The position numbers and the translations under genes are program-made. From positions 558,001-622,000 of the forward strand of contig NC_013235.1 of the NCBI RefSeq assembly GCF_000024365.1: a stretch of 64,000 nucleotides of DNA. The letters are read 5' to 3'. This DNA is from Nakamurella multipartita DSM 44233. GTDB taxonomy: Bacteria; Actinomycetota; Actinomycetes; Mycobacteriales; Nakamurellaceae. The notes under the pieces were generated by a model, which saw only the letters and a list, made by a program, of their open reading frames with translations, had not been told where the DNA came from and did not search any database. Below are positions 40,450-47,171 of the stretch, piece after piece (the first letter of the stretch is position 1; each line of letters opens with the position of its first letter).

Positions 40450-40539
40450 GGTAGCGTGTCCGAGCGGCCGAAGGAGCACGCCTCGAAAGCGTGTGAGGGG
40501 GCAACTCCTCCGTGGGTTCAAATCCCACCGCTACCGCCA
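40450..40539 (+). tRNA. tRNA-Ser (anticodon CGA)
   Basis: A class II tRNA with all arms: acceptor GGTAGCG/CGCTACC, anticodon stem CACGC/GCGTG around loop CTCGAAA (anticodon CGA), a long variable arm (GAGGGGGCAACTCCTC zone), T arm GTGGG-TTCAAAT-CCCAC and an encoded CCA. It reads serine codon UCG. The 3' 59 bases from the anticodon loop are also part of a direct repeat found 5.1 kb downstream, so this gene is the integration site of the element that follows. Confidence 0.97.
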
Positions 40540-40550
40540 CGATCAGCGCA
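40481..40550 (+). repeat. Left attachment repeat (att site) in tRNA-Ser
   Basis: Seventy bases starting CCTCGAAAGC in the anticodon loop and running 11 bases past the CCA end are identical to 45625-45694. Tyrosine recombinases commonly cross over in the anticodon or T loop of tRNA genes and restore the tRNA from the element's copy. The intact tRNA lies at this end. Confidence 0.92.
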
Positions 40551-40586
40551 AACGCCGAGCGCCTCCGCCAGGAGCGCTCGGCGTTT
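40550..40586 (+). terminator. Hairpin terminator after tRNA-Ser
   Basis: AAACGCCGAGCGC pairs with GCGCTCGGCGTTT (13 bp) around an 11-base loop, followed by CGCTCTTAG. It ends the tRNA transcript. A decayed version of the same hairpin follows the right-hand att repeat (45694 onward). Confidence 0.85.
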
Positions 40587-40591
40587 CGCTC

Positions 40592-40612
40592 TTAGTCTCA
40601 GTTTTAGTCTCA
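40592..40612. promoter_or_regulatory. Left arm-type recombinase-binding repeats (putative)
   Basis: TTAGTCTCA occurs twice at a 12-bp spacing (40592, 40604), 42 bp beyond the left att core. The same pair in slightly altered form occurs at 45511 and 45523 inside the right end. Paired direct repeats at both ends of a tyrosine-recombinase element are typical of arm sites. Confidence 0.55.
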
Positions 40613-40839
40613 TTCGCCTCAGAGGGGCCTGCCCGGGTCCTCTTGGCAGTCGAGTAGATCTGGTTGCCTTCCGCCAGGCGCACACCAAGTAGGTGAGGGG
40701 TCGACCTAGCACCTGGAAGATTTCCGGGTGTCGCGATGAGCGGCGGTTGCCTCGCCGACTCAGCCGGTGCGCTGCATCTCGGCTTTGTCTCATGGCAGGC
40801 TGAACATCAACGAGAGCGACGTCGATAGGAAGGCAGCAG

Positions 40840-41184
40840 ATGGTCAGCGACGGTCAGCCCCGATCCCACCTGCTGGGAACCTTCGCCAGGATTGTGACCG
40901 AGGAGATGGCTGGTGAGCGGAAGGCCGCGAGCGATCCGAACTGGAAGGGCCGGCTGCTCAGCGAGGTCTTGGAAGAGACCGGAGGCCAATATGAGTATGT
41001 CTTGGACATCCCAGATCGCGTCATGGCTGACCTGCAACGTCACGTCGACTTGGTAGACGACCCGGTAGCCCGTCAGGTCCTCGAAACTGGCAGGCTTGTT
41101 GTCCCGTTCGAGAACCTGAACGGACTCGATCCCGCGACGACCCGCGTTGCGCTCGGCTTCGGCTTCGGCGGTCACCCAGCCTAA
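40840..41184 (+). CDS. Hypothetical protein of the integrative element
   Basis: A 114-residue protein, MVSDGQPRSHLLGTFARIV onwards, mostly helical and acidic with no recognised domain. A GGAAGG tract six to ten bases before the ATG supports translation. It converges with the recombinase gene. An open frame on the opposite strand over the same bases (40807-41175) has no ribosome-binding site and is less protein-like. Its position next to the att site would suit a recombination directionality factor, but no winged-helix motif is visible. Confidence 0.5.
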   Translation: MVSDGQPRSHLLGTFARIVTEEMAGERKAASDPNWKGRLLSEVLEETGGQYEYVLDIPDRVMADLQRHVDLVDDPVARQVLETGRLVVPFENLNGLDPATTRVALGFGFGGHPA

Positions 41185-41323: not shown

Positions 41324-42058
41324 TCAGGGCGAGCGCCAGATCAGCTCGCCGACGCGGTTCGCGATGTCCCGTTGAACGTGCACGGTCACGTGCTGGTAGC
41401 GCGATGCCATGGCCGAGTGCGACCACCCCATGATCTTCATGACGGCCTGCTCCGGCACGCCCAGGATCAGCAGAACAGTCGCCGCCGTGTGGCGGGCATC
41501 ATGCAGGCGAGCGTCGCGAACGCCGGACGCCGCGAGCAGCCGCTTCCACTCGGTGTAGTCAGTACGTGGGTTGATCGGAGCACCGGTCGGCGTGGCGAAC
41601 AGCCAATCGCCCTCCGTCCATAGCTGGGCCGCCACGTCCCGCTCGGCGGCCTGGGCCACGCGATGCTGACGCAGCAACAAGACCAGCTGATCGGGCAGCC
41701 CGACGGTCCGGCGCCCGGCTCGCGACTTGGTTTCCGCCGTCTCCGTCCGCTCGGGAATCCGCTGCGGGCACCGCCCGCCGTGTTGCTGGCCGCAGCTCCC
41801 GTCACAGCCATGTCGCCACCGTGGACGCAGGCGCGCCCGTCGCACGATCAGGATCCCGGCGTCCAGGTCGACATCCGACCACTTCAGGCCAAGCGCCTCG
41901 CCTTGACGCAGGCCCAGCGCCAGGGCGACGGCCCACCGCGCTCCATTGCGGGAGTTCATGGCCGTGCTCAGCAAGTGCTGAACCTCTTCGACCCCGAACG
42001 GTTCGACCTCGTGCTCGGTCAGCCGAGGCGCCTTTGCGAGCGACGCCGGATTCTGGAC
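41324..42058 (-). pseudogene. Tyrosine recombinase (integrase), truncated: catalytic domain only
   Basis: The catalytic domain is complete: GLRQGEALGL (Arg), LHDARHTAAT (His-x-x-Arg), GWSHSAMASRYQHV (His and nucleophile Tyr). Upstream codons still read integrase-like (VQNPASLAKAPRLTEHEVEP) to about 42058, where homology stops. The N-terminal core-binding and arm-binding domains are gone and the frame continues into unrelated sequence. The first ATG in the remaining part is at about 41974. At the same junction a plus-strand gene remnant begins, so one deletion or rearrangement truncated both genes. Confidence 0.8.
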
Positions 42059-42059
42059 G

Positions 42060-42479
42060 AAGCAGTTCCTAGGGCATCCGTCATTCCTGCTCGTTGGAGC
42101 AAATGCCCGCTTAGCTCCCGAAGCAGAAGGCGCTGCTCTCTCTATTGCAGATTCTGCCCTGGCTTGGCTTTGCGCAGACGTGCGAAATACGCTCGTGCGG
42201 GACGCTGTCCAGTTGTTCGACTATCGACGAAATGATATTCGTGTCGGCCCTGCAATGGCCAGGATGGCGTATGTTCGCGGGGTGGCGACTGGCCGCGGCT
42301 GGATTCGCGACTTGGAGGCGCCTCGAAGTGTGATTCCACTGAACGCCGACTTCTTGCCCCGGACGCGATGGCCGGAAAATCAGACGATCCGCTCTGATCT
42401 ACGTCAAGCGGTTCAGGCTCTTCATTGTTCGATTTTGCAAGTAGGGGATATAGTTGCTCAGAATCTCTCGCTATGGTAA
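42060..42479 (+). pseudogene. 5'-truncated gene remnant of unknown function
   Basis: From 42060 the plus strand is open for 139 codons to a TAA, with protein-like composition (KQFLGHPSFLLVGANARLAP, ALSIADSALAWLCADVRNTL, PLNADFLPRTRWPENQ). There is no start codon before GTG 42180, and the frame begins exactly where integrase homology ends. I read it as the C-terminal part of a gene cut by a deletion. It may belong with the HEPN-motif fragment downstream. No family was recognised. Confidence 0.45.
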
Positions 42480-42666
42480 TGCATCGAGTTCTACGCTGGC
42501 ACCGTGAAATTGGCAAGGCATTAGGGCCGGCGCAACGCAGAGCTTTGCGAGAGGCGATATTGACCTGCTAGACATGGACGCCGGAGCAATCGATTATTCC
42601 GGGTAATGTCGTGGAGATTCTAAATAGTCCTCCGCTCCTACTGCGCTTCCGTACCAGGCTACTTCG

Positions 42667-42897
42667 CGATAGGTTCCGTTCACCACCAATGAATTGCAGA
42701 TCATAGAGCGGCTGTGGAAAGCGCGTAACGATGCCGTCCATGGAATCGCGCCGACTCCGCCCGAACCCTCGAACCTGAGGTTGGGTGTGCACTGGATGTC
42801 ACGAGCACTGGTAACTGCTTGGGCTGAGTCGGCACCTAAACCATCTCCGTCTCCGCTCCGAACGTACATAGACGTGCCCGCGGGCTTCTCTAAGTGA
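42667..42897 (+). pseudogene. Gene fragment with HEPN-type RNxxxH motif
   Basis: A frame after an in-frame TAG reads VPFTTNELQIIERLWKARND then AVHGIAPTPPEPSN and ends SRALVTAWAE...GFSK before a TGA. The R-N-D-A-V-H hexapeptide in a helical context matches the R-N-x3-H catalytic motif of HEPN ribonucleases common in defence and toxin systems. No ATG begins it and the upstream bases contain stops, so it appears to be a fragment. The 187 bases between this and the previous remnant hold nothing I can assign; 42898-43015 likewise. Confidence 0.4.
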
Positions 42898-43015
42898 ATG
42901 CGCTAGAATGACTGTTCGTCGGTGCCTATTATCGTTCTATGCGAATAGAGGTCATGGGTTCCGTCTTAATTGCGTCCGAGTGGGCCTTTCGCAGAGGCGC
43001 GGGTTTTCCGAGGAA

Positions 43016-45217
43016 CTACCCGAACTTCGAAGCAAACTCCTCGCGCACAGCGGAAAGGCCACCGTATGCCTTCACGCCAAGCCGAAGCCGCTCCGCATCA
43101 AGTGTGTCCCGTACCCTTCTTCTGATCAAACGCTCAGAAATCTCCCCACTCTCGCGCCGGATCTCCTCAGCCGTCTCGACCAGGTTGACCGGGAAGTTGC
43201 CAAACCGCCCCAGGTCGGTAACGACTGGCAGGTTCACGCGCAATTCCTGGTCGATTGCCGTACGCAATGAGCCTAGGCGGAGGAACTCGGAGAGAAAGTC
43301 CGGACTGATGATCGGGGAGCCTGGCGCTTTCGGCCCGATCCGCCGCGGAAGTTCGTCAACCAGAGAAAATGCAGTCCGATCCATCGTTAAGAACCAAGAC
43401 CTATATCCGACGGGCGAGGCGGGCTGGCCTTTTCGGAGCTGAATTACTCCTACGCAGTTCTCAACATCGTGTGCAACAAGTCTGTTTACCGTCATCGAAT
43501 CTAGATCGGAATTGGCGCCCGTCCCTCTCCTTCGGTCGTGCGCTTCTTGCCACACTTCCTGAACAGCGCCCCTGAGACTCAAATCTGCTGCATCAGAATA
43601 CTGCAGGAGGTCACGCTTTCCTACCCTGAAGAGACCCCAAAGCGCCTCTGCGACGTCGTCCTCGGGGCGAACGTCCCCCCGGAACTCTTCCGTCCACCCC
43701 GAGAAACTTGCACGAGACCTCCCCGACAGAGCAAATACGCCATACAAGAATGGCACCGATCCGCGCCATTTTTCGCGTGTTCCTCGCGCAAAGGTCAGGG
43801 ACCGGTTGATGTGTCGCTCTACTTCTTCGACGATTCCGCTTGTGACGAACAATTGGATACCCGATTCGCGAGCGGCCTTAAGGAGGACCGTAAATGGCCG
43901 TTCACTGGGTTCCAAGATTAGCGTCTCGGCAAGCATAGGGAGAATCACTGTGGTGTCTAGCCAGATATGTCCTCCGTCGAATAGCTTCACAATAGTCTTC
44001 TGCACGTCGGGGACCTGGCGCAGGAAGGCGAAAAGTGTGTAAGCGTCGGCTAGTCGGCGGAGGTGACGACGAGTTGAGCCCAGCGGTCGTTGCATCACTT
44101 CCACAATGATGCCAACTGCCTGCTCTACCGTAACGGGGAATTCTGTGGGCACCAACGACACCACGGCGGCGCGAACCTGCTCCGCGTCCAGTTGTACCAT
44201 TCGCCCCGATGAGACGGCTCCCGCAAAGGCCTCCCCTTTTTCCAGTAGCAGCTGCTCTATGGCGCCTCGGAGATTTCGGGCGCACGCATCGAAGACTTCT
44301 CCTTCGATTGCGCCAATCTCGCCATCAGCTGCTGCATTGACCAAGTCTTTGATCTGGAGTTCGAGTGACGTCTCATCGTTGACGTACTCGGCCATTCGTT
44401 CGCGGACCTGGGTAGCCTTTTCGTGCGAGAGGCAATAAGAGTCGGACGACTTATGGAAGTGGACGGGACCGCCCTTGCTTGTCAATCGCCTCAGAGCGCT
44501 TGTCGCTTGTTCCTGAACCTGGCGCGGATTGCCAGAGGGCATCATGGCACAAACTCGTTGAATGATCTGGTCCGAACCGATGGTTCGGTCCGAAGTCGTG
44601 CCTTCAAGTGCTGCGATCACCAAGGTCTCGAACGACGTCTTTGTCAAGCCCTTGTCGGTCGCTTTGTCTTGGACGTCCAATGCCAAGTGTAGAAGCGCAA
44701 CCTGCGCTTCTGAGTCGTCCAGGACGGTGGCGACTGTTTGCTTGACTCCCCGGGCTGACAGAAGCGGATCCACGAATCGTTCAGCCAGTTCGGCGGCCGC
44801 AACCTGCCGTTGAGGTGACGTCAGCTCGCGCTCGAGAAACCAACTTTGGTCCCTCACGTCGACCGTAATTCCTTTTTCCTGAATCTTCCTCTTAAGCTCG
44901 TCCGCCGACGGTCCAATGCGTTGATTAGTTACGTATATCAGAGTTCTGAGGTTAGGCATGGTTTCTTCGAGTCGCTTCAGGGTCTTAGATATTTTGTCCT
45001 TCCAGTTCTCGGCGACTGAGTACTGAATGGCCACGCTCGAAGAGTTTTCTGAGGGTGAAAAGAGCTCTCCGTCACGCCCTTTGTCTCCGGTGCTTGCCGC
45101 CATAGTGCGCAGGCTTGGATAGTCAGTTACAAGAAACTCGGCGGCAAGAACTTCGAATTCGCGCCAATTGTCTGGTCCCACTTGATCCAGCGCTAGCTTG
45201 AAGCGTTCAGAAGCCAT
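43016..45217 (-). CDS. Putative dual-nuclease defence protein: PD-(D/E)XK/Mrr-like plus PIN-like domains
   Basis: A 733-residue cytoplasmic protein. Residues 15-125 resemble an Mrr/PD-(D/E)XK nuclease: FEVLAAEFLVTDYPS helix, KGRDGEL (Asp49), VAIQYSVAENWKDKI (Gln65 with Ser67 where Q-x-K is usual), LIYVTNQRIG strand. Residues 190-280 look like a winged helix. Residues 415-620 resemble a PIN domain: HIWLDTTVILPML (Asp421), FVTSGIVEEVERHI (Glu464/465), DLDSMTVNRLV, WFLTMDRTAF (Asp613). Composition is less GC-rich than the chromosome. It is the only large intact gene of the tRNA-Ser element; anti-phage or anti-plasmid function is inferred from domains and location. No strong ribosome-binding site precedes the ATG. 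Confidence 0.7.
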   Translation of the reverse strand: MASERFKLALDQVGPDNWREFEVLAAEFLVTDYPSLRTMAASTGDKGRDGELFSPSENSSSVAIQYSVAENWKDKISKTLKRLEETMPNLRTLIYVTNQRIGPSADELKRKIQEKGITVDVRDQSWFLERELTSPQRQVAAAELAERFVDPLLSARGVKQTVATVLDDSEAQVALLHLALDVQDKATDKGLTKTSFETLVIAALEGTTSDRTIGSDQIIQRVCAMMPSGNPRQVQEQATSALRRLTSKGGPVHFHKSSDSYCLSHEKATQVRERMAEYVNDETSLELQIKDLVNAAADGEIGAIEGEVFDACARNLRGAIEQLLLEKGEAFAGAVSSGRMVQLDAEQVRAAVVSLVPTEFPVTVEQAVGIIVEVMQRPLGSTRRHLRRLADAYTLFAFLRQVPDVQKTIVKLFDGGHIWLDTTVILPMLAETLILEPSERPFTVLLKAARESGIQLFVTSGIVEEVERHINRSLTFARGTREKWRGSVPFLYGVFALSGRSRASFSGWTEEFRGDVRPEDDVAEALWGLFRVGKRDLLQYSDAADLSLRGAVQEVWQEAHDRRRGTGANSDLDSMTVNRLVAHDVENCVGVIQLRKGQPASPVGYRSWFLTMDRTAFSLVDELPRRIGPKAPGSPIISPDFLSEFLRLGSLRTAIDQELRVNLPVVTDLGRFGNFPVNLVETAEEIRRESGEISERLIRRRVRDTLDAERLRLGVKAYGGLSAVREEFASKFG

Positions 45218-45250: not shown

Positions 45251-45532
45251 CTAGCCGGGGTGTCCGATAGGCGATCCCACTTCGCCTGGACTGGGTTTCT
45301 GCCCACACGGCGCGCTTGAAACCACCTGGATACGTTCGATTTCGAAGTTTGACAAGATCACAGATCGTGGAATCGTTCTCGAGGACTTGTACATCACCAT
45401 CCGTTCAGTCGGCGAACCGTTGGCCTCTTTGATGGTGATGCTGTCTCGAGCGGACGCGGGGCCGGCTCGGATCTCCAGGACCCGATCGCCCCGTGGGTTG
45501 ATCTTGGGCTTTAATCTCAGTTCTAGTCTCAT
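45251..45532 (-). CDS. Small hypothetical protein at the right end of the element (doubtful)
   Basis: A 93-residue frame (MRLELRLKPKINPRGDRVLE start) lies upstream of the dual-nuclease gene on the same strand, 33 bp before it. It is basic with a beta-strand-like pattern. Its first codons overlap the right arm-type repeats. The homologous right-end remnant at 47301-47338 retains the KPKIN codons, which could reflect either coding or site conservation. No domain recognised. If it is not a gene, 45218-45624 holds only the nuclease promoter and the element's right end. Confidence 0.35.
   Translation of the reverse strand: MRLELRLKPKINPRGDRVLEIRAGPASARDSITIKEANGSPTERMVMYKSSRTIPRSVILSNFEIERIQVVSSAPCGQKPSPGEVGSPIGHPG
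45511..45531. promoter_or_regulatory. Right arm-type recombinase-binding repeats (putative)
   Basis: TTAATCTCA (45511) and CTAGTCTCA (45523) repeat the spacing and sequence of the left arm sites. They lie about 95 bp inside the right att core, compared with 42 bp on the left, giving the asymmetric arm layout usual for tyrosine-recombinase attachment sites. Confidence 0.5.
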
Positions 45533-45624
45533 TCGGTGGGGTCCGCGGCCGTTGCCTATGGACGGGGCAGCCCTCTGATCAGGGCATATGAGATTGGCGA
45601 CCCCGTCTGACCCCCGAGTTCAGA

Positions 45625-45694
45625 CCTCGAAAGCGTGTGAGGGGGCAACTCCTCCGTGGGTTCAAATCCCACCGCTACCGCCACGATCAGCGCA
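45625..45694 (+). repeat. Right attachment repeat: copy of tRNA-Ser 3' end
   Basis: Identical over 70 bases to 40481-40550, covering the anticodon loop through CCA and 11 bases beyond. The 5' half of the tRNA is missing (the preceding bases are GAGTTCAGA), so it encodes no functional tRNA. It marks the junction between the first element and a second, degenerate relative. Confidence 0.92.
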
Positions 45695-45780
45695 CACGCC
45701 GGGCGTCTCCCTCAGGAGAGGTCGGCGTTCGGCTTCTTGGTCCAGTTCTGGTCTCAGTTGCGGCCCCAGCAGGCGTTTCG

Positions 45781-47171
45781 GGGCTCTTCAGAGTTAGCAG
45801 GGCTTCGCGTGGCTGGTTGACGCCCGGGATTTCCGGGTGCAGGCGTAGCGTACCCGGCGCTTCTGGTTGTCCTGGTTGCGGAAGCCGAAGGCGATCCGGC
45901 CGATGTGTTTGACGATCCGGTTGTAGCCCTCGGTGCGGCCGTTGCTGATCCCGGTGTGCAGCCCGGCGATGATCGAGTTCTGCCAGGCGTGCACCGTCCA
46001 CGCCAGCCGCCGCAGCTGCGCGACCCCGGAGTCGGCGCAATGCAGATAGAACGCGGTCAGCGCGTTGAAGATCCGTCCGCGGTCCGGGTTCGTGCCAGCC
46101 AGCTTGAGCAGCTTGCGGAGCAGTTCCTTGCCCTGCCAGCACTTCTCAAGGCCGCCGGACGGGTCCGCCCGACGCATCGCATCCTGCACCTTGGCCAGCT
46201 CGTCGTCGGTCAGGGACTCCGCGGCCCGCAGCAGCCGGTTCCGTTGCGCCCACTCCGGGTCGCTCTTGCGGCCCCGCCGGCCACGCAGCGCCCAGGCCAA
46301 CTCCCGCCGGTAGTCGGTGACCGCCTTGTTGGCCAGGGCGGACAGATGGAACCGGTCCACGACCACGACAGCATCGGGCAGGGCCAGCCGGGCGGCCCGG
46401 GCGTAGGTCGCGCTGGTGTCCATCGAGATGTGGGTGATGTTGGCGAGCCAGTCCGGGTCCTGCGCCTGCAGCCACTCGATGAGGACCTTGCTGGTGCGGC
46501 CGTTGACCTGCGCGAACAGCCCGCCGTTGCCGCTCAGATCGACCAGGCCGGTGTCGAAGCGGTCCACCCAGGTCTTCGCCCCGGTGGTGGGGTCGGTCTC
46601 GTAGTGGGCCTTGCCGCGGCGGGTCTCGTCGACGCCCAGCACGGTCACCGGCGGCGGCTGCTCGGGCAACACCTGCGCGGCGTGCGCGACGAACGCGTCG
46701 TGCGCAACGCGCCAGTCCATGCCGAATTCGGCCGCCACACCGGACACCGGCCGGGTGTGGTCGCCGATCGCCTCGGCCGCCAGTCGGCGGGCCCGGGTGG
46801 TGATCCGGGCCCGGGCGGGGATCTGCTCGGGCAGGCACTCGGTGAACACCTTCCGCTCGCAGCCGTCGACCTGGCAGCGCCATTTGCGTTTGCGCCACAA
46901 CAGGATCGGCCGATCCTCGCCCAGCCGGACGTCCCGCGGGCGGGTCGTCACCCACGCCTTCGGCGACCTCGACTGCTCACCGCACTCCGGGCACCAGCCG
47001 GCCAGCTGCGGGTCGGTCGAGCAGTGCACGACCCGTCGGCCGACGTCGTCGCGGACGACCTGGTCGACGACCAGCCCGTCGATGTCCAACAGCAGCGAAC
47101 TACTCTGGTCCATGCTCGTGGTCCTTCGGCAGGTTGCGTAGAGAACAACCAGTTTCGAAGGCCACGAGCCC
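45781..47171 (-). mobile_element. ISL3-family insertion sequence
   Basis: The element carries one transposase gene. Its ends are tentatively placed at GGGCTC (45781) and the complementary GAGCCC (47166-47171), giving about 1.39 kb. Only the outermost six bases match clearly and no 8-bp target duplication flanks them (GCGTTTCG versus TCATCTCA), so the ends are uncertain or adjacent DNA was deleted. Confidence 0.6.
45794..47113 (-). CDS. ISL3-family transposase
   Basis: A 439-residue DDE transposase. An N-terminal zinc ribbon (CPECGEQ with CQVDGCERKVF) precedes the helix-turn-helix region and the DDE core: VTVLGVDETRRGK (first Asp), ISMDTSATYARAARLALPDA (second Asp zone) and the C-terminal GLHTGISNGRTEGYNRIVK (Glu). 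This arrangement is typical of the ISL3 family (formerly transposase_12). The reading frame is intact, so it may be active. High GC content like the chromosome suggests an actinobacterial source. Confidence 0.93.
   Translation of the reverse strand: MDQSSSLLLDIDGLVVDQVVRDDVGRRVVHCSTDPQLAGWCPECGEQSRSPKAWVTTRPRDVRLGEDRPILLWRKRKWRCQVDGCERKVFTECLPEQIPARARITTRARRLAAEAIGDHTRPVSGVAAEFGMDWRVAHDAFVAHAAQVLPEQPPPVTVLGVDETRRGKAHYETDPTTGAKTWVDRFDTGLVDLSGNGGLFAQVNGRTSKVLIEWLQAQDPDWLANITHISMDTSATYARAARLALPDAVVVVDRFHLSALANKAVTDYRRELAWALRGRRGRKSDPEWAQRNRLLRAAESLTDDELAKVQDAMRRADPSGGLEKCWQGKELLRKLLKLAGTNPDRGRIFNALTAFYLHCADSGVAQLRRLAWTVHAWQNSIIAGLHTGISNGRTEGYNRIVKHIGRIAFGFRNQDNQKRRVRYACTRKSRASTSHAKPC

Follow-up and report, generated by a model that had tools for sequence, protein, structure and literature searches.

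Multi-domain defence proteins that carry a PIN or an REase domain are a kind already known. Avs4, a STAND NTPase defence protein of about 1,540 residues, begins with an Mrr-like PD-(D/E)XK fold, and a related REase module is found in the Argonaute-associated REase-TIR proteins (PADLOC profile PDLC02416) and in the Mrr-nSTAND3 proteins (PDC-S73). Mrr and the type IV enzymes AspBHI and MspJI have a PD-(D/E)XK endonuclease fold as well. A PIN fold with conserved acidic residues is present in VapC, which is a stand-alone protein with an antitoxin, and in protein-only RNase P (HARP/PRORP), where HARP is stand-alone and processes tRNA. Both domain types can occur in one chain in the TPR - GreA/B-C - PIN system, which was predicted by comparative genomics to counter invaders and has a swappable N-terminal effector that includes REase (eLife 2021, PMC8195603). 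DS-3 of DefensePredictor is a validated single-protein anti-phage system in which the PIN catalytic residues are required (PMC13092281).

In a window of 64,000 nucleotides from Nakamurella multipartita DSM 44233, by which we mean the whole stretch of DNA that was analysed, a gene was found whose product resembles each of these systems in part. The protein consists of an REase-like domain, a winged helix, a helical linker and a PIN domain (Table 1). The top structural match of its N-terminal domain was Avs4, but the window protein has only 733 residues and ends in a PIN domain, and no Pfam match to a STAND ATPase or to C-terminal sensor repeats was obtained. In contrast to the PDLC02416 and PDC-S73 proteins, it is without TIR, pAgo partner and nSTAND. 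Like some members of the TPR - GreA/B-C - PIN system, it combines an N-terminal REase with a C-terminal PIN, whereas the winged helix, the helical linker and the use of one REase throughout the members seen set it apart. In this comparison, which was made by description, neither TPR nor GreA/B-C gave a Pfam match and the model had no beta-rich domain at residues 265-416. DS-3 was likewise compared by its description and not by sequence; its PIN is split between the N and the C terminus and an REase is unmentioned. VapC and HARP share the PIN fold with the window protein but stand alone, and AspBHI and MspJI share the endonuclease fold, whereas the window protein has Q-x-S for Q-x-K, a fused PIN and no modification-reader domain that we could find.

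PADLOC, Pfam and NCBIfam contained no model for the whole protein, and relatives matched PADLOC only in part, by their REase. A literature search by accession and by architecture, covering main texts available without subscription, found no description, and no useful paper on the active site of Avs4 was obtained. The preliminary description of this DNA, made from the sequence alone, had known of no named system with this domain order, and the fixed REase-winged helix-PIN family indeed appears to be unnamed in the sources that were searched.

Table 1. Features of the tRNA-Ser element, with positions in the window, and the plasmid-borne homologue from E. coli
Feature	Position	Strand	Basis
tRNA-Ser(CGA), integration target	40450..40539	+	repeat of its 3' part at 45625
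attL-side repeat	40481..40617	+	137 nt, 86% to 45625-45761; first 70 bp identical
ORF of 114 aa, possible second cargo gene	40840..41184	+	ORF list
Tyrosine integrase, C-terminal part only	41324..41974	-	Phage_integrase, 3.3e-22
Degraded stretch with RNDAVH fragment at 42724	42142..42900		broken frames
Two-nuclease gene, 733 aa (REase-like, winged helix, helical linker, PIN)	43016..45217	-	ORF, alignment, structure models
PIN domain, residues 415-651	43265..43975	-	VIA-align; invariant acidic residues
Winged-helix domain, residues 188-274	44396..44656	-	VIA-align; secondary-structure order
Mrr-like PD-(D/E)XK domain, residues 2-148	44774..45214	-	VIA-align; invariant residues
attR-side repeat	45625..45761	+	second copy of tRNA 3' part
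E. coli plasmid homologue			WP_016156503

The ORF list of the window contains the gene as one intact frame of 733 codons. It lies on the minus strand, which had been left unsaid, and the plus strand across the same positions has many stops. The residues that had been named for the two nuclease modules, Asp49 in KGRDGEL, Gln65 in AIQYSVA, Asp421, Glu464/465 and Asp613, were all found at the positions given for them. The GC content of the gene is 56%, compared to 70% for the window.

A tRNA gene together with a repeated copy of its 3' part is the usual sign of a tyrosine-integrase element. Since the gene lies between tRNA-Ser(CGA) and a second copy of the tRNA 3' part, we assign it to such an element, of about 5.1 kb, bounded by the tRNA gene and the direct repeat 40481/45625 with an identical core of 70 bp. 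Inside the element (42.0-45.6 kb) the GC content is 56.6% versus 70.4% for the window, so the integrative element of lower GC that had been proposed at tRNA-Ser was borne out. The remaining integrase aligns only with residues 135-404 of the 408-residue integrase of a sibling element (74% identity). It has no counterpart of the sibling residues 1-134 and is thus truncated at the 5' end, and the element therefore looks stranded. From 42.1 to 43.0 kb every frame is broken. The claim that the two-nuclease gene is the sole intact cargo was therefore roughly right, with the reservation that the 114-residue ORF, which resembles DNA found elsewhere in the genus (67% identity along some 220 bp), may be a second cargo gene. 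The proposed neighbouring HEPN-motif fragment did not hold up well. RNDAVH is found in an ORF of 67 residues that has no family match and, with six RNxxxH strings in the open segments of at least 60 codons in the window, the string alone is no evidence of a HEPN gene. At 45511-45535, shortly before the right end of the element, there is a 25-nt copy (92%) of the att-flanking sequence 40592-40616, as if it were left over from a previous right end or from a nested att site. An ISL3-family transposase gene (45794-47113) lies immediately outside the right att repeat.

In genus mates, this tRNA-Ser site is occupied by different cargo together with a related integrase. One sibling element (L045 1329-13977), which has the intact 408-residue integrase, carries an Mrr_cat-nSTAND3 protein of 781 residues (PDC-S73, 5.4e-120) that also matches PDLC02416, a 259-residue unknown protein and a TIR_2 protein. 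Another, at the same tRNA-Ser(CGA) (L044 5711-7964), encodes a 219-residue unknown protein and a 545-residue protein without a match in Pfam or PADLOC; judging from its motif FEFGKDFVAK, the latter is possibly another REase. In the genome of the window itself, a second related integrase is encoded by a 441-residue ORF at tRNA-Ser(GGA) (L048 9003-10497; contig C1, about 709-710.5 kb). It adjoins large genes of possible integrative-element type and might provide integrase in trans.

The folds were assigned with an AlphaFold2 model built from the alignment of homologues (mean pLDDT 79.7, pTM 0.67; residues 40-58 around Asp49 locally poor). Foldseek alone gave no match with E ≤ 0.001 in PDB or BFVD, and its matches for the C-terminal half alone were likewise non-significant. 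The model-based assignments depend on VIA-align Z scores of 8-10.6 and on the motifs. Residues 2-150 aligned with the Avs4 N-terminal nuclease domain (Z 10.5, 135 residues, 3.3 Å), and further matches were AspBHI (Z 8.6) and MspJI (Z 8.1). The predicted core has the order alpha-beta-beta-beta-alpha-beta, and residues 2-148 include the motifs GD-x-GRD with Asp49 and Gln65-x-Ser67. Asp49 on strand 2 and Gln65 on strand 3 are of catalytic type, fit PD-(D/E)XK and are invariant in all 26 aligned proteins. The canonical Q-x-K is absent, its last position being always Ser67, and the domain was placed in the PD-(D/E)XK superfamily by its fold and not by the strict motif. The Pfam model Mrr_cat (PF04471) gave 16.2 bits (E 0.012), below its gathering cut-off of 21, and the REase part of PDLC02416 was matched by 17 of the 26 members (best 1.9e-6), spanning residues 18-124 in the one member displayed.

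In the model, the helix that follows the Q-x-S strand has an invariant Lys75 in its first turn. A displaced lysine had been suggested before, and the invariant Q-x-S together with the invariant Lys75 fits this idea. The Q-x-S motif could mean that the REase is inactive, and a conserved DNA-binding role of the REase-like domain is possible. Since Asp49, Gln65 and Lys75 are kept over such divergence, a displaced lysine is favoured over simple decay, and the REase may be active via Lys75.

Residues 188-274 matched the retron-Ec86 effector (Z 8.2) and, with Z 6-8, a large number of other winged helices, and have the order helix-helix-helix-strand-strand in the model. For residues 415-650 of the full model, the VIA-align matches were VapC (Z 9.7, 129 residues, 2.5 Å) and protein-only RNase P (Z 8.4). 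When the C-terminal half was folded alone (pTM 0.75), protein-only RNase P was matched with Z 10.6 and 10.3, PRORP with 9.9 and VapC with 9.2, among a long series of VapC and other PIN domains. This consistent run of matches makes the PIN assignment coherent down the list. The acidic set of a PIN domain is complete (D421, E465, D584, E586, D613), and an alpha-helical insertion of about residues 480-570 separates Glu465 from Asp584. The Pfam models PIN_3 (17.4 bits, E 0.008, cut-off 27) and PIN_12 (13.6 bits, cut-off 32) both scored below their cut-offs. The fold search on the predicted structure thus returned an Avs4-type nuclease, a winged helix and a PIN domain, and the models and the invariant catalytic-type residues support the two nuclease folds with a winged-helix middle that the preliminary description had proposed.

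Full-length relatives with 31-48% identity were found in four bacterial phyla, on enterobacterial plasmids and on viral contigs. Searching with the single sequence, we obtained a relative at 46% from another genome of the class and, at 31%, full-length relatives that are carried by plasmids of E. coli, Citrobacter and Klebsiella. The genome pattern scan gave no relatives with the single sequence, whereas the same scan with the alignment gave 25 genome loci, in addition to four viral contigs; with the PIN part alone, one further viral copy (L051) was obtained. No homologue was detected by tblastn in annotated phage records. Single-sequence phmmer against PDB gave no match, and profiles of the three domains gave no meaningful match to PDB sequences. 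The 26 full-length proteins, which share 31-47% identity with the window protein, align end to end, showing that the architecture is constant. Invariant in all of them are Glu22, Asp49, Glu51, Gln65, Ser67 and Lys75 in the N-terminal part and Asp421, Glu465, Asp584, Glu586 and Asp613 in the C-terminal part. Asp49, Gln65, Asp421, Glu465 and Asp613, which had been named from the sequence of the window, are accordingly invariant in the homologues, with Glu464 as the exception, kept in 18 of the 26. The viral copy L051, read by eye, has a threonine in place of Glu51 and keeps the other ten invariant residues.

In a tree, the Actinomycetota, the Alphaproteobacteria and the Gammaproteobacteria formed one clade each, and the phage copies were placed beside beta- and alphaproteobacterial ones. 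By this tree, the family is old, patchily kept and carried by phage. With such a clade-wise tree, recent long-range transfer is suggested in one form only, as carriage by phages and plasmids. The gene is rare. Two out of 301 good genomes sampled across the phylum had it, as did 5 of 5,426 E. coli genomes, in E. coli always on a plasmid.

For many homologues the context is one of mobility or defence, and the gene is not always found among housekeeping genes. The Idiomarina homologue is an integron gene cassette, in which its own attC lies across the 3' end and an upstream recombination site with GTTAGCA is found ahead of the start codon; the same array also holds PDC-S06, a candidate defence gene. 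In a Pseudomonadales genome, a copy cut by the contig end adjoins an integron integrase (TIGR02249, 2.7e-127). On the viral contig L051 the homologue is located beside a P2-type portal gene, at the gpA-gpQ locus, which has been described as a hotspot of antiviral genes (Rousset et al., PMC9122126). In L033 and L035 it adjoins P2-like tail genes. In Methylobacter, the homologue is next to an ApaLI-type restriction enzyme and a methyltransferase, and in Leifsonia a TIR-TM gene is nearby. Some chromosomal homologues, such as L011 and L015, are beside ordinary genes. When the neighbours were clustered across the loci, it was mainly integrases, serine recombinases, transposases and phage structural genes that repeated; the other repeated pairs belonged to distant or generic families, and no recurring partner or antitoxin gene was found.

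Three neighbours were considered and set aside. A 258-residue gene convergent to the homologue in L002 (L002 3778-4554 / L047 8309-9085) contains RNVTLH, a HEPN-type motif; it has no similarity to the fragment in the window and no Pfam match, and was rejected as a shared HEPN partner. The 146-residue gene preceding the enterobacterial copies has no PADLOC match and does not recur elsewhere. A GajB-like helicase in the vicinity of L024, perhaps an ordinary UvrD, was left out of the evidence.

Two conserved active sites of nuclease type, a winged helix of DNA-binding type, no partner gene, a patchy distribution and location at known defence-cargo sites argue for a single-gene defence system, as had been proposed. 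We consider it probable that the gene is a single-gene system against phages or other mobile elements, i.e. defence in a broad sense, with anti-phage activity as a prediction. The best single account, to which we give a probability of about 0.6, is that the PIN domain is an RNase effector and that DNA is engaged by the winged helix and the REase; beyond architecture and conservation, we infer its mechanism. The resting protein would be autoinhibited and would engage invading or abnormal DNA through its winged helix and its atypical REase. This DNA the REase may also cut with Asp49, Gln65 and a lysine (Lys75) provided by the following helix rather than by the Q-x-K strand. The PIN domain would then be released to cleave cellular RNA, for which the analogy to VapC and protein-only RNase P suggests tRNA or rRNA, leading to a growth stop or aborted infection. 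As effector, the PIN is assigned more securely, and the order from sensor to effector is a guess. It is a tentative and rather doubtful extension that a single chain, without ATPase, nucleotide messenger or partner, would destroy invading DNA, with the lysine moved to the helix, and would shut down the RNA of the cell as well.

The main rival to a PIN effector is that the roles are exchanged, with the REase as the effector and the PIN and helical part as a sensor or RNA-binding switch; a DNase at the N terminus would then be triggered by recognition at the C terminus, as in Avs4 or Mrr-nSTAND. Effectors usually sit at the N terminus. A related REase is N-terminal in Avs4 and in the nSTAND3 sibling, and the N-terminal domain matches the Argonaute-associated REase profile. 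However, the PIN acidic residues are kept in 26 of 26 proteins, which would be needless for a pure sensor, and the usual lysine of Q-x-K is missing, so we regard this exchange as unlikely. A type IV-like restriction enzyme, in which the winged helix reads DNA, the REase cuts modified or foreign DNA and the PIN acts like FEN1 or Exo1, would agree with the modification-dependent AspBHI and MspJI among the REase matches and with the weak appearance of Exo1 and FEN1 in the Foldseek list for the C-terminal half. It is improbable, as the top PIN matches are RNases and not flap nucleases and a modification reader was not found. Toxins for element maintenance would fit the mobile contexts too. A lone RNase toxin that stabilises its carrier element or excludes competitors, and is not directed against phage, would explain the VapC-like fold and why plasmids, integrons, prophages and tRNA elements carry the gene, but no antitoxin gene recurs alongside, and the protein is far larger than VapC, with an REase-like domain and a winged helix in addition. 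This is about as improbable, if anything slightly more so. Finally, some homologues beside ordinary chromosomal genes would be expected if the protein were a housekeeping or DNA-repair nuclease that came to lie in an island by chance. Its sporadic distribution, in less than 1% of the sampled genomes and on phages, plasmids and integrons, largely refutes this idea, and its likelihood is very small.

If the PIN-effector account is confirmed, the proteins would form a defence family that is compact, consists of one gene without an ATPase and unites two different nuclease folds in each chain; its carriers in at least four bacterial phyla are integrons, P2-like phages, plasmids and small tRNA elements. 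As E. coli plasmids have a copy, the family is directly testable in laboratory strains, and the invariant residues of both domains offer clear mutants. With the moved lysine, active-site rearrangement within the PD-(D/E)XK superfamily could be put to the test.

Two observations concern the plasmid loci. A gene for a TrlF-family AAA-like ATPase adjoins the plasmid copies in E. coli (L004 14575-17196) and Klebsiella (L005 12575-15196) as part of the same block. The Gordonia plasmid pCP113 (L006 8001-8594) has retained a remnant of the PIN part only, corresponding to query residues 505-683, which adjoins genes for a DUF262 protein and an EcoRI-type methyltransferase.
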